A stretch of 20,276 bases of DNA from a virus, in IMG/VR virus record IMGVR_UViG_3300042691_027090, positions 1 to 20,276 of that record; one strand, given 5' to 3'. The notes below the pieces were generated by a model. It ran no database searches. It saw only the letters and a program-made list of their open reading frames with translations, and was not told where the DNA came from. Positions 6,007 through 20,007 of this stretch are shown one piece after another. The position numbers were made by a program, and so were the translations under genes. The first letter of the stretch is position 1. Each line of letters begins with the position of its first letter.

Positions 6007-6342
6007 ATGCTAACTCTTCTCAAGCTTCTCTCTACCCTTTTTCTCACCATGAGCCTCCTGCTCTCCCGCTTCCTCTCCATCTCCGCTCGCAGTGCCGCTC
6101 TGCTCGCCGCCAAGGACAAGAAGATCGCCGACCTCAGCGAACAACTGGCCGCCGCCACCGCCGCCGTAGCCGCCGCCACCGCCGCCGTAGCCGCCGCCGC
6201 CGCCGCGGTTGCCGCCGCCGCCCAGGCCAAAGTCGCCGAACTGGAAGGCGTTGTCCAGGAAGATGTCCAGGAAGATACCGAACTCGACGCTGCCCTCACC
6301 GAGGAGGAAGACAAGCTCGATGAACTGGAAGCCGCCGGCTGA
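6007..6342 (+). CDS. Alanine-heptad coiled-coil protein, 111 aa
   Basis: The product has a hydrophobic N-terminus, then KDKKIADLSEQL, then three alanine-rich heptads (AAATAAV, AAATAAV, AAAAAAV; residues 48-68), then an acidic helical tail (VAELEGVV..., ...EEEDKLDELEAA). The whole is likely one long Ala-type coiled coil. A second in-frame ATG at 6049 (MSLLLSRFLSIS) may be the true start. The 42 bases between them are pyrimidine-rich and could be untranslated leader, and neither start has a Shine-Dalgarno. The gene has its own upstream promoter-like box and a strong terminator directly after it, so it appears monocistronic and probably abundant. A structural or membrane-associated role is possible; I do not recognise the family. 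Confidence 0.65.
   Translation: MLTLLKLLSTLFLTMSLLLSRFLSISARSAALLAAKDKKIADLSEQLAAATAAVAAATAAVAAAAAAVAAAAQAKVAELEGVVQEDVQEDTELDAALTEEEDKLDELEAAG
6148..6210 (+). repeat. 21-bp tandem repeat encoding alanine heptads
   Basis: Two identical 21-base units (6148-6168 and 6169-6189) and a diverged third (6190-6210) encode AAATAAV, AAATAAV and AAAAAAV. The period equals exactly seven codons, so unit gain or loss would preserve the coiled-coil register. Confidence 0.85.
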
Positions 6343-9710: not shown

Positions 9711-11567
9711 GTGGAACAACAGTCTTCCGCCATTACCGCAAACTCCACGAATGCTGACATTCGCGCGGATGGGGAAGATGCACGCAGTGACGGTGCCCTG
9801 GTAAACGCCCTCACGGGTATGGGTGTCTACGGGAAGGACAAGACCCAGCACACCCGGATCAACTTCTCCCCGATGTTGTCGCATCCGGAGTTGGAAGCTC
9901 TCTACACGATCGGGCTGCCCCGGCGTTATGTCGACGCAATCGCCGACGCAGTCCTAAAACACAGAGCAACTATTACCCTTGGTGGGGATAAGTCTGAAAA
10001 AGAAGTCGATCAGATCAAGAACTTTGAAGCGTATCTCAAAGATCTCAAGGTCTACCGCAAGTATGCAGAAGCCATCCGCCTGCAGAGGTTGTATGGCGGG
10101 TCCACCCTTATCATCCTCGCCGACGATGGGATCGAAGACTTCTCCCAGCCCCTCAACGAGAACAACATACGTTCCATTCGCGGACTTTGTGCGCTCTCGC
10201 GTCACGAAATCTTCCCTCTCGACCTCTCCGTCATGGACTGGGAAAGCCCTGAACTTTATCGAATCACCACGAATAAGAAGCTTGATCCTTCTCAAACGGC
10301 GCCTGTAACCAATCTGGAGATCCACGCCTCACGTGTGATCCGCTTCGACGGGCTTTATCTCCCCTGGAATCAACGTCAAAAGAACAACGGCTGGGGGCAA
10401 GCACCTCTCCAGGTGGTGTTTAACGCCTGGCGCACTTACGAAAGCGCAATCCGTGGGCTGGAGAACACTATCACCGATGGTTCAGTCTTCTGGCATAAAA
10501 TCCCCGGCATGATGAACATGGTCAAGGCGGGTAACTCCGCTGTGCTCATGAAGCGGATGGAGATCAACAATCTCGCCCGCTCTGTCTACGGAGGGATGCT
10601 GCTCGACAAAGACGAAGAGATTGGCTTCTCTGAGCGCACGCTGGCCAACATGACAGCAGCGACGACCCCCTTTGCGGAGTACATGCAGGCGACCACAGGC
10701 TGGCCCGCTTCGATCCTCATGGGCACAAGCCCTGGCGGTTTAGGTAAAGAAGGTCGCTTTGAAGAACGTATATGGGCGTCCCTTGTCGAAGACTGGCAGA
10801 CTGTCTATTGCCAGGAGCCCCTCTCCGACCTCTTCCGCATCCTGATGCTGGCCAAGGACGGCCCCATGGGCGGGAAAGAGCCAGACTCCTGGGAGATCTC
10901 CTTCCCCTCGGTCTTCACAGAGACAGAGCTTGAACAGATAGAGGTGCGCAAAGGGCAGGCTGAAGTGGATCAGATTTACGCCGGCCTCACGGTCATTAAC
11001 CCACTGGAGATCCGCACCAACCGCTTCGGCGCGACCGAGTACAGCAGCGAAACCGTGCTCGATGAAAATGTATCCGCCCAGATGGAGATGCAGGCGGATG
11101 CCACGTTTGAGAGCAATATGAACCAGCTTCAGTCGCAGTCCCTGGCGGCTCAGGGCCTCGGGCCGGACGGTGCTCCTATCCCCGACCCCAACGCTCCCCC
11201 ACCGGGCGAGGATCCTGCTGCAGCGCCCTCGGGGGGATCGGAACCCGCAGCGGCCAAGCCCAAGGCGGCGAAGAAGACCGACTCAAACGAAATCATTGTA
11301 AAACAGATAGGTGATATGACCATGGTCCGCCGCGACGATGCCCCCGAGGGCGATCTGACAGCACTCACACTTAGCGGCCCTCACAATGCCCGCAGGCTGA
11401 CAATGTACAAATCCCGCATCCAGACAAATACGGACGCAAAACCGGTGATTCTGGCGGGGCCTCAGGTAACTGGGTTCGCTTCCATGCGGGCCGCCCGCCG
11501 AGGTTTGGCTGCTTTCCTCCCTCCCCAGACTGTCTTCACGCTTTCCGTATCCCCCGAGGCCGATTGA
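9711..11567 (+). CDS. Portal protein (DUF1073-like)
   Basis: Portal proteins form the dodecameric ring at the capsid vertex through which DNA enters and leaves. The N-terminal 450 residues match the DUF1073 portal family: GLPRRYVDAIADAVLKHRAT, then KYAEAIRLQRLYGGSTLIIL at about 117-136, later ASILMGTSPGGLGKEGRF. Residues about 482-524 form a Pro/Ala-rich linker (GAPIPDPNAPPPGEDP). An extra C-terminal segment of about 90 residues (NARRLTMYKSRIQ..., ...ASMRAARRGLAAFLPP) is unassigned. There is no sign of the anti-CBASS nuclease domain sometimes linked with this family. GTG 9711 is the start and lacks a Shine-Dalgarno. The stop overlaps the next gene by one base. Its place after the terminase agrees with the assignment. 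Confidence 0.88.
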   Translation: MEQQSSAITANSTNADIRADGEDARSDGALVNALTGMGVYGKDKTQHTRINFSPMLSHPELEALYTIGLPRRYVDAIADAVLKHRATITLGGDKSEKEVDQIKNFEAYLKDLKVYRKYAEAIRLQRLYGGSTLIILADDGIEDFSQPLNENNIRSIRGLCALSRHEIFPLDLSVMDWESPELYRITTNKKLDPSQTAPVTNLEIHASRVIRFDGLYLPWNQRQKNNGWGQAPLQVVFNAWRTYESAIRGLENTITDGSVFWHKIPGMMNMVKAGNSAVLMKRMEINNLARSVYGGMLLDKDEEIGFSERTLANMTAATTPFAEYMQATTGWPASILMGTSPGGLGKEGRFEERIWASLVEDWQTVYCQEPLSDLFRILMLAKDGPMGGKEPDSWEISFPSVFTETELEQIEVRKGQAEVDQIYAGLTVINPLEIRTNRFGATEYSSETVLDENVSAQMEMQADATFESNMNQLQSQSLAAQGLGPDGAPIPDPNAPPPGEDPAAAPSGGSEPAAAKPKAAKKTDSNEIIVKQIGDMTMVRRDDAPEGDLTALTLSGPHNARRLTMYKSRIQTNTDAKPVILAGPQVTGFASMRAARRGLAAFLPPQTVFTLSVSPEAD

Positions 11568-14500
11568 TGGACAATATCCGTGCCGCCGCCTATCTTCACA
11601 CCCGGATTCGCCTCGACGCGAAGCGCAAGACTTCGTCTACGATTAAATGTAAGCCGCCGAATAAAGTATGTGGGCGCCGCTGCATCCCTCCTTCCTGGGA
11701 TTGCCGCCTGAAAGGGGAAGGTCATGACACACATCAGCGGGCTACTGGGTTCGATCCACTAAGCGGCGCCGCCAACATTCAGCGTGGTGTGAAGCGCGTC
11801 GCCAAAGGCGTGGTCACAGGCAATGTCTCCGAAGTGGAAGGCGGCACCCGCGCGATCAAACGCGGCATCGTCAAAGCCACTCCCGGTGACATCGAGAAGA
11901 AGAAGAAAGTCCGCGAGACTCTCGACAAGAACACCCGCAACATCACCATCGGCCTTGCTTTAGTCACTGGTGGCTTTGCCCTGCACAACGTGATGAAGCG
12001 CGGCTGGCCGGCTTATGCCAATGGCCCTGGCCGGCAGTTGGATGACAGCGTCCGCGCAGGGGTCTCTGCAGTCATGGACCGTGTCCCTGGTGTAGGCGGA
12101 ATCCGCGCTGAGCAACGCAGGGCTGCTGAAGGTGCGGCCCTGGCCACCTCCTATCGCATCAACGTCACTCAGCAGAGTGGCCCTGATGCGCTGACGCAGC
12201 AAGCCGCTGAAGTCCCCGGCACCATCCGCAACGGTGGGTACGGGAATGCCAGCAGGCAGAAGGTGGGGCAGGCCCTCAACGACGCTGAGCGTGAGGCCCA
12301 GGCCGGCGGCTACCCCGAGGACGAATGGAAGCGCGTCAGCCGCGAGAAGATGTGGTCTGCCACGGTTGCCGGCCGTAGCGTGTTCGCTGATGACGCGACG
12401 TACCAGTTCCTTGCCCAGCAGCACGGCCTCGCTGGGCAACGCACCGGCATCTTGAGGGATGACATCAAGTTCCTGGAACAGCGCATCGCCGGCAGCCTCT
12501 CGCTTCAATCCAGAGCACTGCGCCAGGACGCGGTCAATCAAGGTTTTGCGATTAGCGCCAACGGCAGAGGCCAAGGTGGTAAGCGGGCTCAAGCCAAAGC
12601 TCAGTATCTCGACCAGATCATCAACCGGGACTTCGCTGGCGCTCCAGTGCAGTTCCAGAACTCCCTGCGCACGCAGCTTAAAACACTGCTTGATGCGCCC
12701 GATGGGCATGACTTCAGCAGCGAAGCCAGGGCTGTCTACCGTGACACGCTCAATCAGTTCGACGCTCACTTCAAATCCATTGCGGATTTCGCCGCTGTGC
12801 CCTCTGGTGATCGCGTTCGCCCTGAGCAGCGCAATCTGGTGGAGCACATGAACATTGGGCACGCCCAAGCGCTGCACACCCGCATGCAGGGCAACCTTCG
12901 CGACATCCAGATCGCCGGCCCTAGCCACGCGGAGTTTACACAAAAGTACGTCTTCGACACCAAAGTCAACGGTCGCCCGACATCTTCCCCCTCCAACCGC
13001 GTCATTGTCTCGGCGGCCTCGGAGATGTCCGGCCAGGCGTACACCAATGTCAACGCCGCGAGGGATTACCTTATCGGCCAGGGCTATTCCAAGCTGAGCA
13101 GGGTCGCTCCGGCGGAAGCCCCTACCCCTCCTCCGGCCCCCACCCCTGGCTCCAGGCCCCGGCGCAACAGGCGTGTCCAGCGGTCGTATAACGACATCGT
13201 GGCAATGTTGACTCGCGGAGGGCTCTCCCCCGAGGCCGCCCAGACGGAAGCTCGCAGGATCATCGAACGGCGTGGGGATGCTGATGATGAGACGTTCAAC
13301 GTCTACATGGCAACCTATTTGGCTCAACTGCAGCGCCTCGATGCTGGCAAAGGCAAGCCGTGCGGGGAGAGCTACATCCCCAAAGCGCACAAGTGCGGGA
13401 AGCAGTCTGTAGCCGCCTCTGCAAAGCGCACTGAAGTGCTTTCGGATAAGCACGACGCGAAGTACCGCGCGAGGATGCTGGGTAGTCTGATCGCCCGTGT
13501 GGGGCTGACTGCAGGCGCAGGCATTCTTGCGTACAAGGCAGCGGAAGATATGCTTGAAAACGGGCACAAGTATAGTAGTGATCAAATGAAAGGTGCCTTC
13601 TACACAACTATCGGGCTCAGTGCTATCGCCGCTGTCGGGGTTGGCAGCATCCTCCGCGAACAGAAAGTAACCAAAAACTCCAAGCAACTCACTGCTGAGA
13701 TCGAGAAGCTCAAAGCCGCCAAAGGTGTAGAGCCTGAAACCATCGACAAGGTCAATAAGTTCATTACTGAGACGGACATGGACGTGCAACGTGTAGGCGC
13801 GATGTACGTTCTCATGGGTATGGGTGGGTACTTCACCACTGATCAGCCCAATCGTGTCCACACAATCGGGGGTTCGCCTACTCACGACCGCACCTACAAC
13901 AGCAAAGACCCTATCGACGCGCTCGATAACGGGCTTAATCGGTATATGCAGGATCGCGCTAAGCTCTCCCCACGCCAACAGGACGCACGTAACATCAAAG
14001 ACCTGGACACCATGAAGCGCAACTTCAGCGTGGCCGGCTACGTCGGCAACTCCAAAGCCGCGTCCACCGCCATTACCCTGCACGAAATCGGCCACGCCAT
14101 CCACTACAGGGGTGATTTTGCTACTCCTGTCTCCGTCACGGTCAAAGGCAAGAAGTACGAAGGTGATGAACTCCAGGCCGAACTCATGCGCTCTTCCAGC
14201 ATCTACGGGCAGAGCGACATCCGTAAGGCGGCTCGTCCTGCTGCTGGTGATTACTACTCCCAAGGCAACCGTCTGGAGACTTTCACCGAAAACTTCGTGC
14301 TCTACGCCGCCAACGGCAAAAACATGAAGGAACAGTTTCCCGTATCTTACGCATGGACTAAGGCTACTGTAGACTATTCCCTGTCGAAACCTGCAGCTAA
14401 GCCCGCTCGCCCCATGGCGGACGTGATCGAGGAACTCGCGGCAGGCGCGGAACGTTTTGATCCTAAGAAAACACAGCGCAAACCCAAAACCGTGGCTAAG

Positions 14501-14686
14501 ACAGACAGTGAGGATGCCTCGCAGTTCTTCGCCCTGTACGAGGAGATGCGCGAAGCGGCGACCTCGGGGGACCTGTTGCAGGCCATCGCCACCATGGCCA
14601 AAGCTCAAGCCCTGCCCCGCGAACAGCGCTTCATGATCGCGTCCTTGATGGAAACCGCTGCGATGTACCGCACGATGCCGCAGTAA
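11567..14686 (+). CDS. Large virion-locus protein with zincin-like metallopeptidase domain, 1039 aa
   Basis: The start is ATG 11567, inside the portal stop (TGATG). The protein appears to be two tagged modules fused. Residues 1-50 hold RLDA and four cysteines (C28, C35, C39, C46: KVCGRRCIPPSWDC). After a basic stretch, 126-143 is hydrophobic, and 150-520 is a helical region I do not recognise. A Pro-rich linker is followed by QRLDAGKGKPCGESYIPKAH at about 590 (C599 and C610), which repeats the tag of the downstream genes. Hydrophobic segments follow at 640-657 and 678-697. At 836-846 ITLHEIGHAIHY is a clear HExxH zinc site (H839, E840, H843). LETFTENFVLYA at 903-914 supplies a likely third ligand, E908 or E904. 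Such zincin domains occur at the ends of phage minor head proteins. Targets are unknown; a host protein or a virion protein are both possible. Confidence 0.75.
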   Translation: MDNIRAAAYLHTRIRLDAKRKTSSTIKCKPPNKVCGRRCIPPSWDCRLKGEGHDTHQRATGFDPLSGAANIQRGVKRVAKGVVTGNVSEVEGGTRAIKRGIVKATPGDIEKKKKVRETLDKNTRNITIGLALVTGGFALHNVMKRGWPAYANGPGRQLDDSVRAGVSAVMDRVPGVGGIRAEQRRAAEGAALATSYRINVTQQSGPDALTQQAAEVPGTIRNGGYGNASRQKVGQALNDAEREAQAGGYPEDEWKRVSREKMWSATVAGRSVFADDATYQFLAQQHGLAGQRTGILRDDIKFLEQRIAGSLSLQSRALRQDAVNQGFAISANGRGQGGKRAQAKAQYLDQIINRDFAGAPVQFQNSLRTQLKTLLDAPDGHDFSSEARAVYRDTLNQFDAHFKSIADFAAVPSGDRVRPEQRNLVEHMNIGHAQALHTRMQGNLRDIQIAGPSHAEFTQKYVFDTKVNGRPTSSPSNRVIVSAASEMSGQAYTNVNAARDYLIGQGYSKLSRVAPAEAPTPPPAPTPGSRPRRNRRVQRSYNDIVAMLTRGGLSPEAAQTEARRIIERRGDADDETFNVYMATYLAQLQRLDAGKGKPCGESYIPKAHKCGKQSVAASAKRTEVLSDKHDAKYRARMLGSLIARVGLTAGAGILAYKAAEDMLENGHKYSSDQMKGAFYTTIGLSAIAAVGVGSILREQKVTKNSKQLTAEIEKLKAAKGVEPETIDKVNKFITETDMDVQRVGAMYVLMGMGGYFTTDQPNRVHTIGGSPTHDRTYNSKDPIDALDNGLNRYMQDRAKLSPRQQDARNIKDLDTMKRNFSVAGYVGNSKAASTAITLHEIGHAIHYRGDFATPVSVTVKGKKYEGDELQAELMRSSSIYGQSDIRKAARPAAGDYYSQGNRLETFTENFVLYAANGKNMKEQFPVSYAWTKATVDYSLSKPAAKPARPMADVIEELAAGAERFDPKKTQRKPKTVAKTDSEDASQFFALYEEMREAATSGDLLQAIATMAKAQALPREQRFMIASLMETAAMYRTMPQ

Positions 14687-14717
14687 CGACGACTACAGCG
14701 CGATCCCGCAGCAGCAC

Positions 14718-14723
14718 TACGCT
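14718..14723 (+). promoter_or_regulatory. Putative -10 box TACGCT
   Basis: TACGCT lies 23 bases before ATG 14747 in a 60-base gap after the zincin gene. It is weakly supported alone and matches the TAnnCT pattern of the other late-gene boxes. Confidence 0.3.
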
Positions 14724-14746
14724 AATCCAACTGTGACCTCGTCCTC

Positions 14747-15001
14747 ATGTCTTCACCGCTGCCGCTGGACCTCACCACCCACCAGAAGTTTGAACAGGAG
14801 CGGCTGCTTCGTGCCATCAACACCCTTGCCGCCAACAAGGACATCGAAGCTCTGCGCACCATGGCCGCCCAGTTCGTCCGTGGCTTCATGACGCAACGAG
14901 CCGCCGCGCATTGGGCCTTGAGGCAGAGCATGGAGCCTGTCTCCAGCTACAGGCCGGCGGCGGTTCCTGGTATCAGTGGCGCTGCCCCCGAGGTCGGGTA
15001 G
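14747..15001 (+). CDS. Small helical phage protein, 84 aa
   Basis: The product is mainly helical (HQKFEQERLLRAINTLAANK, EALRTMAAQFVRGFMTQRAA, HWALRQSMEP) with a flexible Gly/Pro C-terminus. The pattern of QKFEQExLRR...QRAAxxWALRQ is one I associate with small uncharacterised proteins in cyanophage structural regions, but I am unsure. There is no membrane segment and no Shine-Dalgarno. The stop TAG is part of the TAGACT box before the holin-like gene. It could be a small virion or chaperone protein. Confidence 0.6.
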   Translation: MSSPLPLDLTTHQKFEQERLLRAINTLAANKDIEALRTMAAQFVRGFMTQRAAAHWALRQSMEPVSSYRPAAVPGISGAAPEVG

Positions 15002-15004
15002 ACT
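14999..15004 (+). promoter_or_regulatory. Putative -10 box TAGACT before holin-like gene
   Basis: TAGACT overlaps the preceding stop codon and lies 19 bases before ATG 15024. It is identical in sequence and in stop-codon overlap to the box at 7435-7440, which argues against chance. Confidence 0.45.
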
Positions 15005-15023
15005 GACCCATCGCCACCTACAC

Positions 15024-15269
15024 ATGAGCCAGCCCTCTCCCCCGCCCCCTTGGATCCCCCTCTTCGGCGGGATGCTCGCTGTCACCGCTTCCATCGTTTC
15101 CTCCTCACAGGCGGATTCCACCGCCATCAACTGGCTGGCGATCTTCTTCGCGCTCACCACGTTCTATTCCGAAATCCTCGCAGCAGTTCCCACACTCAAG
15201 TCCAACGCGATCTACCAACAGATCGGCTCTCTGCTTAACACAGCCGCCCGCATGCTGTGCACCCGATGA
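15024..15269 (+). CDS. Two-helix membrane protein, holin-like, 81 aa
   Basis: The start is ATG 15024; the frame is open further 5' but only in the tail of the previous gene. After a proline-rich N-terminus there are two hydrophobic segments, about residues 10-27 (WIPLFGGMLAVTASIVSS) and 35-55 (INWLAIFFALTTFYSEIL), followed by a polar C-terminal helix. Size, two helices and position directly before a peptidase gene resemble a class II holin. No sequence signature confirms this. The stop overlaps the next ATG (ATGA), so it is translationally coupled to the C39-like peptidase. It could alternatively be a virion membrane-interacting protein. Confidence 0.55.
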   Translation: MSQPSPPPPWIPLFGGMLAVTASIVSSSQADSTAINWLAIFFALTTFYSEILAAVPTLKSNAIYQQIGSLLNTAARMLCTR

Positions 15270-15841
15270 CCGGCGCCCTCTCCCCCACCAAAGAGTGGAA
15301 GACCGACGTTCACGCGCTGAACCTCTCTCAACCTGACGCTCACACCTGTCAGGCGGCGTGCATCGCCATGGCCGTGGGGGACAAGAGCGTTCTCGGGGTC
15401 CGCCGCAAGCTGGACAAGCTGCCAGGTGCGGCCGGCTCGACCACCAACATGGGGGCGGTCATCAAGTCCTATATCGGCAAGCGCTACGTCTACAACCACG
15501 CAGCTTCGCTTTATGAAATCAGCGAGTGGCTGAAAGGCGGGGAACTGCTGATCACCCACGGCTATTTCACAGGATCCGGCCACGTCATCATCCTCGACGG
15601 GCTCAAAGACCCCAGCAACGGCCCTGATCTGTTCAACGTCAAGGACCCCTGGTCCGAATTCGACGGCCCAAGCTGGTCTTACAACAACCCTGGAGTGCAG
15701 TTCTACGACGGGTTCTACTCCGCGCACATCATCTACGCCGCTTGCGTCGCCAGTGAGAGTGTTTGGCAGGCCTCTCGCCTATACAAAGCCCCGCTCGACT
15801 ACACCAAGAAAGGCGCCTGGGTTCACCGCATCATGCCGTAA
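15266..15841 (+). CDS. C39-like cysteine peptidase, 191 aa
   Basis: ATG 15266 in the ATGA junction is preferred to a GTG at 15257. The protein shows papain-like C39 features: LSQPDAHTCQAACIAMAVGD (Q22, nucleophile C28), SGHVIILDGL (H106), and NVKDPWS (D127), in the right order and spacing for the Peptidase_C39_2 type. Such domains cleave peptide bonds after double glycine in exporters, or peptidoglycan or protein targets in phages. There is no signal peptide or cell-wall-binding domain. Coupling to the holin-like gene suggests a lysis role; its position among head genes equally allows a virion-associated lysin or processing enzyme. C32 is an alternative nucleophile. The fold is fairly certain; the substrate is unknown. 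Confidence 0.78.
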   Translation: MTGALSPTKEWKTDVHALNLSQPDAHTCQAACIAMAVGDKSVLGVRRKLDKLPGAAGSTTNMGAVIKSYIGKRYVYNHAASLYEISEWLKGGELLITHGYFTGSGHVIILDGLKDPSNGPDLFNVKDPWSEFDGPSWSYNNPGVQFYDGFYSAHIIYAACVASESVWQASRLYKAPLDYTKKGAWVHRIMP

Positions 15842-15851
15842 ACCCCCGCGA

Positions 15852-15857
15852 TAGCCT
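15852..15857 (+). promoter_or_regulatory. Putative -10 box TAGCCT
   Basis: TAGCCT lies 28 bases before ATG 15886 in a 44-base gap following the peptidase gene. It would drive the three tagged genes 15886-18649, which all overlap one another. Confidence 0.4.
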
Positions 15858-15885
15858 GGGAAGACGCAGTTCTCCCGCCCAGGCC

Positions 15886-16779
15886 ATGCCGTTCCCCGTG
15901 AAGAAGAAGGCCTCCGAGGAGAGCCCCGCTGAGGAGGAGATGAACGAAGCCCCCGAGGCCGGGGAAGCCAAGAAGCCTTGCGCCAAGTGCAAGAAGAAAG
16001 GCAAGAAGTGTTCCGGTGACTGCGGTTGCAGCGGCGCGGCCGGCAAAGGGAAGATGGATGGAGCCCTCACTCCGCAGGAGTACCTCGACGCATGTGATCT
16101 GGGGATCCAGCGACGCAGCGCTGCCTATGTGCGTGCACGCCTCGACGCTATGAAGGGAGGCACGAAGTGCGGTAACGGTTACATCGGGCGGGGGAAGAAG
16201 TGTAGGATCAATCAAGGACGCTTGGCGAGCAAGGCTCCTACTGGAGGCACACGCAAAGCCACAGCCGGTAAATGGTTAGGTAGAGCCGCCTCGACAGGGG
16301 GTCTGATTAGCAGCGGAATGTCTATCGGGTCACTACTCAAAGGCGATTTTCGCAAAACCAATCGTTACACCGCGGCGGCTGCAGGCTTCCACGCCCTAGG
16401 TGGCGCCGCTAACAAGCTGGAAGCTTCCGGGACGGCAGATAAGCGAAAAGCTAGCGACCTTCGTTCCCAGGGCAATGTCAAACTCTACCAAGGTGCACTA
16501 TTAGGTGGACTGGCTCTTCTCCAAAGTGGGGACCTACAGCGCGTTGGAGGTATCCCTCGCGATGTTGCTACGGGCTTCAAGCGTGCACAATCAAAGCGCA
16601 CTAAGCTCAACACCATGACTAACGAGCAGTATCAGGCCGCTAAGGTCGCCACTGGTCGCACCACATCCGGTTTCCGCGAAAACGCCCGCAAAGGGGCCGC
16701 ACGCGCCTGGAATCGTGCTCGCAGTCGAAATACCACAGCGCGTTCCCTCACCGCAGGCTTACTGCGCGGCCGTTCATGA
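15886..16779 (+). CDS. Cys-tagged basic virion-locus protein, 297 aa
   Basis: ATG 15886 is chosen because the open frame upstream only shadows the peptidase gene. The N-terminus is acidic (EESPAEEEMNEAPEAGEAKK), then a Lys/Cys cluster at 32-48 with five cysteines. Next comes LTPQEYLDACDLGIQRRSAA at 61-80, followed by the shared tag YVRARLDA...KCGNGYIGRGKKC (C95 and C106). The remainder is basic and Gly/Ala-rich with weakly hydrophobic stretches (GGLISSGMSIGSLL, LYQGALLGGLALLQSG) and an Arg-rich C-terminus suited to binding DNA. The gene overlaps the next by ATGA. I infer an internal head protein. No enzyme motif is visible. Confidence 0.65.
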   Translation: MPFPVKKKASEESPAEEEMNEAPEAGEAKKPCAKCKKKGKKCSGDCGCSGAAGKGKMDGALTPQEYLDACDLGIQRRSAAYVRARLDAMKGGTKCGNGYIGRGKKCRINQGRLASKAPTGGTRKATAGKWLGRAASTGGLISSGMSIGSLLKGDFRKTNRYTAAAAGFHALGGAANKLEASGTADKRKASDLRSQGNVKLYQGALLGGLALLQSGDLQRVGGIPRDVATGFKRAQSKRTKLNTMTNEQYQAAKVATGRTTSGFRENARKGAARAWNRARSRNTTARSLTAGLLRGRS

Positions 16780-17603
16780 CACTAACAGCATCCCAATTCC
16801 GCGCTGACGCCAGCGTCAAATGCGGCGCCGGCTACATCACCCAAGGCAAGAAGTGCCACAAAGGCGTCGGCGCCCCCAAGGCCCTGGCCACCGCCCCCAC
16901 TCCCCCGAGGCCGAAACCCGGCACCTCCCGTGGGCGCAAGCTCGCCCTCGGAGCAGCAGCCGCTGGTGCAGTCGCCCTCGGGGCTGGGCTTACCCTGGCC
17001 TCCTCCCGGAAGCAGATCCTGCGCTCCCCCGGCCTGGTCCGCCGCGCCGCGAGCAAGGGCATCAACGACATCGTCTACCGGGCTACGTCGAAGCCCGCAA
17101 CGATGACCTTTCGCGGGAAAGGGATGAAGAAAATGACCAAGGATCTCCGTAAACGCAGTTTGCGGCGTAAGGCCATGCTGACCGCAGAAGCGCTTCGGCG
17201 TAAGCATGAGCCTGGGTACCGCAAGCCTCGGTTCCCGGATAAGCGCAGAGACGGCCTTCTTCGCGCTGACGCCTTCGTCGGCAACGACAAGAAGCTCACA
17301 CCACTCACCATCCGCCTCGACAACAAGTCCCCCGCCTGGCAACGCAAGGAAGGTAAGAACTCCGAGGGCGGCCTGAACGCCAAGGGTATCGCCTCCTACC
17401 GCCGGGAGAATCCAGGCTCCAAGCTCTCCCTGGCTGTAACCTCGGACCCCTCCAAGCTCAACCCTGACTCCAAGAAAGCGAAGCGCAGGAAAGCCTTCTG
17501 CTCCCGCATGTCGGGGATGAAGCGGAAGTTGACCAGCGCCGCTACCGCGAATGACCCCGATTCTCGGATCAACAAGTCGCTGCGTAAATGGAACTGCAAC
17601 TGA
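16776..17603 (+). CDS. Cys-tagged protein with DUF6321-like C-terminal domain, 275 aa
   Basis: ATG 16776 overlaps the previous stop. Residues 9-27 carry the shared tag in its shortest form (RADASVKCGAGYITQGKKC; C16 and C27), followed by a Pro-rich linker and a hydrophobic Ala/Gly helix at 56-76. A very basic middle (KKMTKDLRKRSLRRKAM) precedes a C-terminal domain from about K184: KSPAWQRKEGKNSEGGLNAK and AFCSRMSGMKRKLTSAATAN, then NDPDSRINKSLRKWNCN. I know this domain from many large and marine phages and recall it as DUF6321, of unknown function. The name is from memory. Strong basic charge suggests contact with DNA in the head. The next gene starts 16 bases before its stop. Confidence 0.75.
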   Translation: MTLTASQFRADASVKCGAGYITQGKKCHKGVGAPKALATAPTPPRPKPGTSRGRKLALGAAAAGAVALGAGLTLASSRKQILRSPGLVRRAASKGINDIVYRATSKPATMTFRGKGMKKMTKDLRKRSLRRKAMLTAEALRRKHEPGYRKPRFPDKRRDGLLRADAFVGNDKKLTPLTIRLDNKSPAWQRKEGKNSEGGLNAKGIASYRRENPGSKLSLAVTSDPSKLNPDSKKAKRRKAFCSRMSGMKRKLTSAATANDPDSRINKSLRKWNCN

Positions 17604-18649
17604 CCGCAGCGCGAATGCGCCTTGACAAGAAGTGCGGGAAATCTGGCATCGCCGACAACAAGAAGTGCAGTAAGAAGACAACCCCCGCACCCTCTCCCCG
17701 GATCACCCCGAGCCTGATCGCCAAAGTCGCACTCGGGGCAGGGGCAGTGGCTGGCACCGCCGCCATCGGTCTGGCCGCACAACGTCGCTTCGGCCGCCGC
17801 GATCCCAACTTCAAGGCCTTCACCTCTCCTGGCGAAGACTGGGATCGGATTGAAGCCGAGGCCCGCCAGGGCGGTAAGACGTGGAAGGTGTTTGAAGACA
17901 ATAAGAAGGCGGTAGCCGCTGCATGCGCGAGCGCGAAGATCGATCACTATATCCGAGAGGACGTCTTTGTCCCTGTTCCTCGCTGCGCTCAAGGACGCGG
18001 AGCTTATGGCTACTACGTCGTACACCCCTCTGGTAAGTACGGCATCAAGTACGCGCACAACGAAGGCAGCCCTCCCACAGAATCATTCTTTAAATCCAAA
18101 GACAGTCTGCTTGAAGAAGGCCAAGTTCTCCTCCACGCGAATAGGAGCGGTGTGCCCACACCCAAAGTGCTGAAGGTTACAGAAGACGTCCTCGTAATGG
18201 AGCACCTGGGTGACTTCGTCCCGCTGCACAAGACGCGCAGCGGGTTCAATGGGTACTCTCTCGACAGAGACTCCCCGATACAGCTAAGGCGCAATCTGCT
18301 CAGCGCATTTGAGACCATGCACACTGCGGGTATAACGCACAACGATGTTCACTTCAACAACATTCTAGTAAACCCCACAAACAAAGAAGTCCGAATCATC
18401 GACTTCGGCATCGCAGGCTTCGCTTCGCAAGAGCCTTGGATGTTCACAGAAGAACTCCAGCGAGTGCCGTATCTAATCGGGCTCCGTAATGTCAGAAACT
18501 TTGAGCGGAGATGGGATCCTCAGATGAAGCGCGTAGAAAAACATCTCTCTTACGAAGAGGGTCGTAAGAGTGCAGCCATAGTCAATGGCTACTACAAAAG
18601 CCTGCGCTTCTACATGGAGCACGAACACAGCAAATACACAAAAGCATGA
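17588..18649 (+). CDS. Cys-tagged protein kinase, 353 aa
   Basis: Residues 11-27 are the shared tag (RLDKKCGKSGIADNKKC; C16 and C27). A hydrophobic helix follows at about 43-64. Residues 130-345 form a compact protein kinase of the RIO/Bud32/ABC1-like group. It has a Gly-rich loop GRGAYG (136-141), the ATP lysine K154 in YGIKYA, a helix-C Glu near 176/177 followed by HANRSGVPTPKVL, a hinge at VLVMEHLGDF, the catalytic loop HNDVHFNN (D253, N258), and IIDFG with D272. All key catalytic residues are present, so it should be active. Known phage kinases such as T7 gp0.7 are early proteins. This one sits between portal and protease-scaffold genes and overlaps a tagged gene, pointing to a virion component. 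Protein versus small-molecule substrate cannot be told. Confidence 0.85.
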   Translation: MELQLTAARMRLDKKCGKSGIADNKKCSKKTTPAPSPRITPSLIAKVALGAGAVAGTAAIGLAAQRRFGRRDPNFKAFTSPGEDWDRIEAEARQGGKTWKVFEDNKKAVAAACASAKIDHYIREDVFVPVPRCAQGRGAYGYYVVHPSGKYGIKYAHNEGSPPTESFFKSKDSLLEEGQVLLHANRSGVPTPKVLKVTEDVLVMEHLGDFVPLHKTRSGFNGYSLDRDSPIQLRRNLLSAFETMHTAGITHNDVHFNNILVNPTNKEVRIIDFGIAGFASQEPWMFTEELQRVPYLIGLRNVRNFERRWDPQMKRVEKHLSYEEGRKSAAIVNGYYKSLRFYMEHEHSKYTKA

Positions 18650-18687: not shown

Positions 18688-20007
18688 ATGACCACAGCCA
18701 CCCGCTACGACTTCGCGACCGTCCCCATCACGGACAGCGAGATCGACCCGGAAACGGGTTTCCTCAAGGTCTGGTGCAGGGCTGCCCGCACCGGAACCCA
18801 GCGATACCGCCGCGCTGACGGCTCGATCGCCACGGAGTACCGCCCCGAGGCCGAAGTCTCCAAACCCGAGACTCTCAGTTCCTTTGGGATGAAACCTGTT
18901 ACCTGGCATCACCCTCCCGTTCTTCTCGACGCAGAAAACACGAAGATGTACCAAGTCGGCCACGCCGGCTCTCAGGTGCGCTTCAGTGACGGTTTTGTTG
19001 AAGTTGCCCTTCTCGTCACGGATAAGAAGGTCATCGAGAATGTCCACAACAAAGACTCGGCTGATCACGCAGTCGAAGTCTCCGCTGGATACCGGGTTGA
19101 TTACGACCCCACCCCAGGTAAAACGCCCTCCGGCGAAGCCTATGACGGTGTCCAACGCAACATTCGGGTCAACCACATCGCCATCGTCCCGAAAGGGCGC
19201 GCAGGCCCTGAAGTCCGCCTCCTTCTCGGTCGGCTCGATTCAACGGCAGCCGTATCCTGTGATGAGGAACTTCTTCCCCCCGAGCCCGCCAATCCCCCCG
19301 CAATTCCCGTTATGGCCACTGTCCGAATCACGCTCGATGGGGTGGACGTTGAAGTCGCCTCGGAGGTCGCGCCCCTCATTCAGGGCTATGTGCGCGACAG
19401 CAAGAATGAAATCACCGCGCTGACGACCAAAAACACCGCTCTGACCGAAGAACTCGCGGAACTCAAGGCGGACTACGACGACCTGGAGCAGCAGAAGGAG
19501 ACCGCTGAAGGTCGTGCGGATGGCTTGCAAGCTGCCCTGGATGAAGGCGGTGCAGGTGAAATCAAGCTCGATGAAGACAACATCGATGAGATCCTCGCTC
19601 AGATCCCCGCCGAGCGGATCGATGCACTCGTTGCTGCCCGCCTCGACACCCTCAGCAAACTGGCCCCCGCGTTTGACGACGACTTCGTCTTCGACGGTGT
19701 CCCCGACGAGGATCTCTACATCGCCGCCTACGAGAACCTCTTCGGCGAAGCCCCTGACGAGGACATGTCCCCCGATCTCCTCCAGGGTCGTGTCGAAGGC
19801 GCCCTCGCCGCGCTCGATTCCGACGACACCCAAGAACCGGCCCCCGAGCCCGCCCGCAAGGACAGCGCCGAATCCGACTCCACCAAACCCCTGCGCACCG
19901 CCCTCCGTGGTGTGCAACGCCGGGACGCATCCGCCGCTTCGGCCAATTACGAAGCACAGGTCACCAAGAACTACCAGAAGCCTCTCTCCGCTTCCCGTAA
20001 GCGGTAA
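18688..20007 (+). CDS. Prohead protease-scaffold fusion (DUF2213-like)
   Basis: The N-terminal 185 residues match DUF2213, a prohead-protease-like family found just before capsid genes. Visible pieces are MKPVTWHHPPVLLD (H75 candidate), DHAVEVSAGYRVDYDP (S132 in an S-x-G-Y motif as in HK97-type proteases), and DGVQRNIRVNHIAIVPKGRA. After a Pro-rich joint the C-terminal part is acidic and helical, with a coiled coil at about 235-285 (ALTEELAELKADYDDLEQQK). This is typical of scaffolding, and the very end is basic (QKPLSASRKR). Such fusions template capsid assembly and are digested during maturation. An in-frame ATG at 19312 (M209) at the domain boundary could start a separate scaffold. The catalytic residues are inferred by analogy. 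Confidence 0.8.
   Translation: MTTATRYDFATVPITDSEIDPETGFLKVWCRAARTGTQRYRRADGSIATEYRPEAEVSKPETLSSFGMKPVTWHHPPVLLDAENTKMYQVGHAGSQVRFSDGFVEVALLVTDKKVIENVHNKDSADHAVEVSAGYRVDYDPTPGKTPSGEAYDGVQRNIRVNHIAIVPKGRAGPEVRLLLGRLDSTAAVSCDEELLPPEPANPPAIPVMATVRITLDGVDVEVASEVAPLIQGYVRDSKNEITALTTKNTALTEELAELKADYDDLEQQKETAEGRADGLQAALDEGGAGEIKLDEDNIDEILAQIPAERIDALVAARLDTLSKLAPAFDDDFVFDGVPDEDLYIAAYENLFGEAPDEDMSPDLLQGRVEGALAALDSDDTQEPAPEPARKDSAESDSTKPLRTALRGVQRRDASAASANYEAQVTKNYQKPLSASRKR

Follow-up and report, generated by a model that had tools for sequence, protein, structure and literature searches.

We report a previously undescribed short protein tag, found in a window of 20,276 bases that makes up the whole stretch analyzed here (IMG/VR virus record IMGVR_UViG_3300042691_027090, positions 1 to 20,276). 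The tag consists of an R-x-D motif and a hairpin with two cysteines, in most cases followed by a hydrophobic stretch. To judge from the sequences collected, in a large group of uncultivated aquatic phages almost all genes that lie between those for the portal and the capsid protease bear it. This module is real and recurrent, and each genome has it in a single head-gene cluster; its cysteines occur in pairs, hydrophobic segments follow it and its cargo is swapped. The tagged proteins are probably carried within the virion and pass into the host.

Results

Four neighboring proteins in the window share a cysteine module

The initial annotation of the window had proposed that RLDA or a variant, followed by CG-x2-[YG]-I-x4-KC, marks four neighboring proteins. 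The residues are as it described at all four sites: C599/C610 of the 11567-14686 protein (cysteine pair at nucleotides 13361-13396), C95/C106 of the 15886 product (16168-16203), C16/C27 of the 16776 product (16821-16856) and C16/C27 of the 17588 kinase (17633-17668). With their upstream motifs, the copies read CGESYIPKAHKC (copy 1, internal, RLDA; 13334..13396; profile hidden Markov model [HMM] score 47.8 bits; predicted strands at residues 598-600 and 603-605), CGNGYIGRGKKC (copy 2, RLDA; 16138..16203; 40.8 bits), CGAGYITQGKKC (copy 3, RADA; 16800..16856; 46.2 bits) and CGKSGIADNKKC (copy 4, RLDK; 17618..17668; 46.5 bits), all on the plus strand. The cysteine spacing of "exactly 11" holds as a difference in numbering, but not as a gap, since 10 residues lie between the cysteines. 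These copies are the sole matches in the six frames of the window, and loosening the pattern added none; the motif did not arise in 5000 residue shuffles of the ten proteins annotated in the window, and the reversed DNA pattern had no match across the window.

A four-cysteine relative near the start of the 11567 protein was also borne out: RLDA precedes C-x6-C-G-R-R-C-x6-C at residues 15-46 (11609..11704, plus strand; C-x6-CGxRCIPPxWxC; HMM 17 bits; predicted hairpin). The Ala/Gly hydrophobic segment said to follow three of the copies is plain in the 16776 product (residues 56-77), in the 17588 kinase (residues 42-65) and after copy 1 of the first protein (residues 637-663; 13475..13555, plus strand), and a weaker one is seen in the 15886 product (residues 130-151). 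The description of neighboring virion-locus proteins as tagged applies to four of the five larger open reading frames (ORFs), but not to the 15257 product or to an 84-amino-acid ORF starting at 14747.

The module is recurrent in uncultivated phages and near-absent from cellular genomes

We assembled further copies by scanning IMG/VR with a DNA pattern, then with three further patterns and finally with profile HMMs. The first scan yielded seven contigs with genuine copies, and a polar linker and a hydrophobic stretch come after every one of these copies; these records hold one to seven copies each on a single strand, and the reversed pattern had no match. The HMMs brought the total to 609 copies, carried by 440 ORFs; the 191 stretches that hold them come from IMG/VR, phages or genomes and overlap in some cases, known duplicates being excluded from the statistics. 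The consensus is R-x-D, 2 to about 20 residues, then C-G-x-[SG]-x-I-P-x-x-x-K-C. Among 372 distinct cores chosen by the pattern C-[GA]-x3-[IVLMF]-x5-C, which fixes the cysteine columns by selection, the glycine is kept in 372/372 and the isoleucine in 367/372. When 95 tagged representatives are aligned (5% mean column identity), the core C, G, I and C are the sole near-invariant columns.

No model covering the module is among the Pfam or PHROGs matches listed for the window's tagged proteins, and every family in Pfam, NCBIfam and PHROGs matches at most 9 of the 95 representatives. BLAST searches with the short tag, the four-cysteine region and the whole zincin protein against 50,697 phage records found no significant relative. 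The only cultured-phage module found, in gp044 of Aphanizomenon phage CL131 (ATW59312.1), was missed by BLAST and detected by HMM (E=9e-12). This protein, encoded in the structural-gene region, has the same R-A-D and four-cysteine module, but differs in its cargo, a domain with a THNHP motif, and in its location after the capsid gene. Liquid chromatography-tandem mass spectrometry of the CL131 virion identified 23 proteins (PMC6293099). By portal, CL131 and S-CBS4 are the nearest cultured relatives. Of 386 cyanobacterial genomes, one carries the module, a Thermosynechococcus metagenome-assembled genome in which one module contig also has a portal and a terminase; a scan of the genome collection returned the same genome alone. 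The module thus appears near-absent from cellular genomes. The gene psbA, sought as a mark of a cyanobacterial host, was absent in 26 records.

Tagged genes occupy the interval between portal and protease

In the window, the genes for the small and large terminase subunits are followed by the portal gene (Phage_portal_3; 9711..11567, plus strand; Pfam PF06381, E=5e-53; phrog_146, E=6e-77), five larger ORFs and one small one, and the gene for a DUF2213 head maturation protease (18688..20007, plus strand; PF09979, E=4e-42; phrog_530, E=2e-74). An HMM search for positional preference, set beforehand as a refuting test, found that the module is not position-free. In the loci that include the portal, which had been selected through the module, 304/304 module ORFs are on the portal strand and downstream of the portal. 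Where portal and protease are both present, 116/117 lie between them, the exception being CL131 gp044; where the protease is present and the portal missing, 49/52 lie upstream of the protease, and the three exceptions all come from the 134-kb record G005.

Because these loci had been found via the module, a second sample was drawn by portal alone; it comprises 57 loci, newly fetched and each extending 1.5 kb or more beyond the portal. Modules were present in 56/57, with 164 module ORFs after the portal, none in 260 kb upstream of it and none on the opposite strand. The portal-selected contigs partly overlap the earlier ones, so that selection is controlled for in a sample that is not fully new. 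In long records (40-134 kb), all module copies fall in a single cluster per record.

Anatomy of the module

The four-cysteine form has two cysteines more than the two-cysteine form, the first seven residues ahead of the core and the second within it. The extra cysteines are strictly paired: 281 of the 372 cores have neither, 91 have both and none has a single one (298, 78 and 0 with a looser anchor). They are gained or lost together, which fits two independent disulfides and a zinc site less well. An AlphaFold2 model of the first tagged protein (52 sequences, mean predicted local distance difference test [pLDDT] 84) draws the four-cysteine and two-cysteine copies as short beta-hairpins, with moderate local confidence, and all four cysteines of the four-cysteine form are invariant in the 52 homologues. 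When a hydrophobic segment is defined as a 17-residue window with a Kyte-Doolittle score of at least 1.2 within 60 residues after the module, one follows 67% of two-cysteine and 80% of four-cysteine copies, compared with 2% for stretches of the same proteins that lie clear of modules.

The first copy lies within 60 amino acids of the start in 267/383 ORFs. It falls at residues 60-200 in 112/383 and extra internal copies are common, so the analogy with a T4-like, strictly N-terminal signal does not hold. Some proteins carry three or four tags and reach lengths of up to 1722 amino acids.

The best PDB profile match of the module, a weak one (E=0.02), is to the first half of the low-density lipoprotein (LDL) receptor class A repeat; the third-ranked match is to the GAL4 zinc cluster (E=0.11). 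The N-terminal half of the class A domain has the same C-x6-C-x-x-x-C-I-P-x-x-W-x-C spacing as the four-cysteine form, and its disulfide layout pairs C1 with C3. The module lacks the fifth and sixth cysteines and the acidic calcium site, and is basic after its last cysteine. Since the rest of the domain is missing, we regard this as a likeness and not membership, most likely a case of convergence. A two-cysteine subgroup (for example CGESHIPKAHKC) has histidines at positions +4 and +9 of the core in 44/372 cores and could form a C-H-H-C metal site.

The cargo is swapped and effector-like

The claim that a shared tag carries unrelated cargo held up across the set, where the cargo is interchangeable and effector-like. 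Pfam domains in the 95 representatives include about seven protein-kinase-like domains, seven DnaJ, two DUF6321, two DUF5872, two LRAT, two class-3 lipases (Lipase_3) and one ADP-ribosyltransferase (ADPrib_exo_Tox). In the window, the fourth tagged protein (17588..18649, plus strand) consists of the module, the hydrophobic segment (17711-17782) and a protein-kinase-like cargo (PF00069, E=9e-10; RIO1, E=3e-7) that keeps HNDVHFNNIL and IDFG motifs; homologues of this kinase occur across the set, most with the module. The third (16776..17603, plus strand) has the module, a hydrophobic segment (16941-17006) and a DUF6321 cargo (17352-17591; PF19846, E=8e-17; phrog_727, E=3e-37). Both the window and the stretch L081 have DUF6321 joined to the tag, but it is a separate, untagged ORF in L079, L110, L111 and others, which is direct evidence of recombination between carrier and cargo.

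We found no mention of DUF6321 in the literature searched. The one experimental hint at a place in the virion is indirect and comes from cyanophage S-SCSM1, in which 45 virion proteins have been identified by mass spectrometry (PMC9602691). Its DUF6321 homologue, SSCSM1_29, is annotated as "virion protein", a label that we infer to rest on that phage's mass spectrometry. Marine virus AG-345-E15 has a DUF6321 protein 77% identical to that of the window, with no module in the stretch read.

Two further observations concern the cargo genes. Tagged proteins with a C-terminal J-domain (DnaJ) are encoded in L092 (3946-4941, minus strand) and L249 (7808-9142, plus strand), and a J-domain cargo suggests recruitment of host Hsp70. 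In L081 (11609-11950, plus strand; 113 amino acids), and also in L110, L111 and L128, an opposite-strand ORF amid the cargo genes aligns with a portion of the major capsid protein profile (E about 1e-20).

R-x-D also occurs near the N-termini of head proteins

The R-x-D part of the tag is also found at the N-terminus of head proteins: in 34/34 proteases (9.0 expected from shuffled sequences), 25/25 major capsid proteins (4.4 expected) and 62/92 portals (15.1 expected), whereas terminases are barely enriched (15/56 versus 10.3 expected). The comparison was made post hoc and each head family is one lineage, so we treat it as a lead. The window's portal has RADGEDARSDG, which contains R-x-D, near its N-terminus (9762-9794, plus strand), and its protease has RYDF (18703-18714). 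CL131 has R-x-D in portal, protease and major capsid protein, and S-CBS4 has it in portal and major capsid protein, with no cysteine module in the region read. The occurrence of R-x-D on head proteins even in S-CBS4 makes it perhaps a general head-protein signal. It may serve the protease, and the cysteine hairpin and helix may be an added delivery part.

The first tagged protein and remaining genes of the window

The first tagged protein (11567..14686, plus strand) comprises the four-cysteine module, a helical core of about 540 residues, a two-cysteine module, a hydrophobic segment and a zincin-like domain. Its start overlaps the portal stop in the window (ATGA), as does that of the first tagged ORF in 86/112 loci. 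The 540-residue core is conserved in 107 loci; Foldseek and VIA-align gave no convincing fold for it, which does not imply a new one. In the C-terminal domain, HExxH (HEIGH or HELGH) and the downstream glutamate in LETxxENF are invariant in six homologues, the active-site region of the window protein (HEIGHAIH and LETFTENF) spanning 14081..14296 on the plus strand. All six zincin-like homologues have sub-threshold matches to the ATLF family (best E=1.6e-4), and the window protein falls below the curated cut-off. We describe the domain as zincin-like, with weak similarity to ATLF. Its AlphaFold2 model (mean pLDDT 59) has no convincing match by Foldseek or VIA-align, again without implying a novel fold.

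The second tagged protein (15886..16779, plus strand) has a conserved N-terminal part of about 80 amino acids that matches 65 ORFs, the module, and a hydrophobic and basic C-terminal part; homologues beginning MPIP... back its start. Near its N-terminus and apart from the module is a dense run of cysteines, CAKCKKKGKKCSGDCGC (15979-16029). Between the first and second tagged genes lies an ORF resembling a C39/papain-like cysteine peptidase (15257..15841, plus strand; PF13529, E=0.009, sub-threshold), which is conserved in this position across nine stretches. Elsewhere in the window, the ORF at 6007-6342 has a hydrophobic start, a long Ala-rich ATAAVAAA repeat and then an acidic helix, and is a possible lysis or membrane protein. 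An Rfam search of the window gave no match.

Discussion

Given the strict genomic slot, the swapped effector-like cargo and the adjacent hydrophobic segment, the module is best read as a virion-cargo tag, an interpretation that we consider somewhat more probable than all other readings combined. During head assembly, proteins bearing R-x-D and the cysteine hairpin, with or without the hydrophobic helix, would be collected into the prohead, as the position of their genes suggests, probably at the portal end, and thereby packaged alongside the genome. Upon infection they would exit with or ahead of the DNA, and the hydrophobic segment beside each hairpin would insert in the host envelope and thereby allow the attached enzyme (in the window, the zincin, the DUF6321 protein or the kinase) to be delivered to or across the inner membrane. 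The domain names suggest that it would act there as an effector. Large multi-tag proteins would be concatenated cargo units. A bolder version, which we advance tentatively and think could well be wrong, is that of a self-contained delivery label: a disulfide-locked hairpin with R-x-D would admit any protein to the prohead and, with the hydrophobic helix, thread it into the host envelope, and a whole clade of uncultivated aquatic phages would use it to exchange kinases, J-domains, ADP-ribosyltransferases, peptidases and lipases within one fixed slot that lies between portal and protease.

Several observations weigh against a cargo tag. In CL131 and in the 134-kb record G005, tagged genes lie downstream of the protease and capsid genes, and the Thermosynechococcus contig has tagged genes away from the portal. 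Untagged genes such as the C39-like ORF occupy the same interval, so a gene need not be tagged to stand there. A third of the two-cysteine copies have no clear hydrophobic segment, and copies are often internal (median relative position 0.13, upper quartile 0.5). The initial proposal of a virion cargo or ejection tag is well supported by genomic context, but the module is unlike a simple N-terminal signal, with many internal copies and three or four in some proteins. These features make a "carrier unit" or a "processing signal" real alternatives.

If the module were a processing signal, the DUF2213 head protease would recognize R-x-D and the hairpin, trim head proteins and cut multi-tag polyproteins into cargo units, the tag being a cleavage or docking site instead of a delivery device. 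The N-terminal R-x-D of protease, major capsid protein and portal, barely enriched in terminase and present in head proteins of both S-CBS4 and CL131, would fit, as would the separation of domains by modules in the longest proteins. But R-x-D is short, the comparison carries the limits given above, a cleavage site has no need of an invariant cysteine pair, and residue 9-16 of a small single-cargo protein is where many of the tags are found. We judge this strongest of the rivals unlikely, although it is compatible with the cargo tag as one step. Less probable again is that the tagged proteins form an inner core on the portal or a conduit for ejection there, in the manner of the ejection proteins of short-tailed phages, with the hairpin as an assembly contact and the enzyme domains as secondary passengers. 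The first tagged protein is indeed large, all-helical and widely conserved, several tagged families have no recognizable enzyme domain, and hydrophobic segments occur throughout. However, cargo is freely swapped among genomes, unlike a stoichiometric core, and no fold match to ejection proteins was obtained, though the absence of a match is not excluding.

The cysteines, with some histidines, might instead bind zinc in a knuckle whose basic tail binds DNA, the proteins being packed by riding the genome. The C-H-H-C cores, the lysine-rich flanks and the GAL4 match all point that way, but most two-cysteine cores have no extra ligands, the paired extra cysteines fit two independent disulfides, and the best profile match is to the LDL-receptor class A half, in which C1-C3 is the equivalent disulfide; we find this reading very improbable. 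Hardly credible to us is paralogy alone, in which the four genes would be decayed tandem duplicates sharing an ancestral N-terminus without present function. The genes do lie in tandem on one strand, but the core C, G and C (on which the cores were selected) are invariant and the isoleucine nearly so among contigs whose portals are down to 36-38% identical to that of the window and whose cargo is unrelated. Such conservation would not be maintained by drift.

The closest functional parallel to the cargo tag is the T4 capsid-targeting sequence of IPI-III and Alt, likewise a short common sequence on unrelated proteins encoded among head genes, with ADP-ribosyltransferases as a recurring cargo class. 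The T4 signal is strictly N-terminal, has no cysteines and no adjacent hydrophobic helix, and is removed by the head protease, whereas the tag described here is often internal, repeated and built on a cysteine hairpin. By analogy, it may work like a capsid-targeting signal distinct from that of T4.

Interchangeable effector domains (zincin, ADP-ribosyltransferase and others) beside portal or terminase genes, predicted to be packed and injected, are also known from polyvalent proteins and MuF or portal fusions (Iyer et al., 2017; PMC5512222). The kinase, DnaJ, ADPrib_exo_Tox, Lipase_3, LRAT and zincin-like domains of the virion-cluster genes described here resemble those effectors. The carrier in polyvalent proteins is a whole MuF or portal domain, whereas here it is a module of about 30 residues on separate genes, and neither the tagged proteins of the window nor the 95 representatives have a MuF or portal domain by Pfam. 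That survey comes nearest in concept, and its main text never uses the word "cysteine" (PMC5512222).

Very few short signals that direct proteins into phage heads are known. With hundreds of copies, the simple pattern described here singles out genes whose function is unknown and whose products are likely virion cargo, so that candidate phage effectors could be listed from sequence alone, and a tag of about 30 residues makes the entry requirement for phage heads testable.

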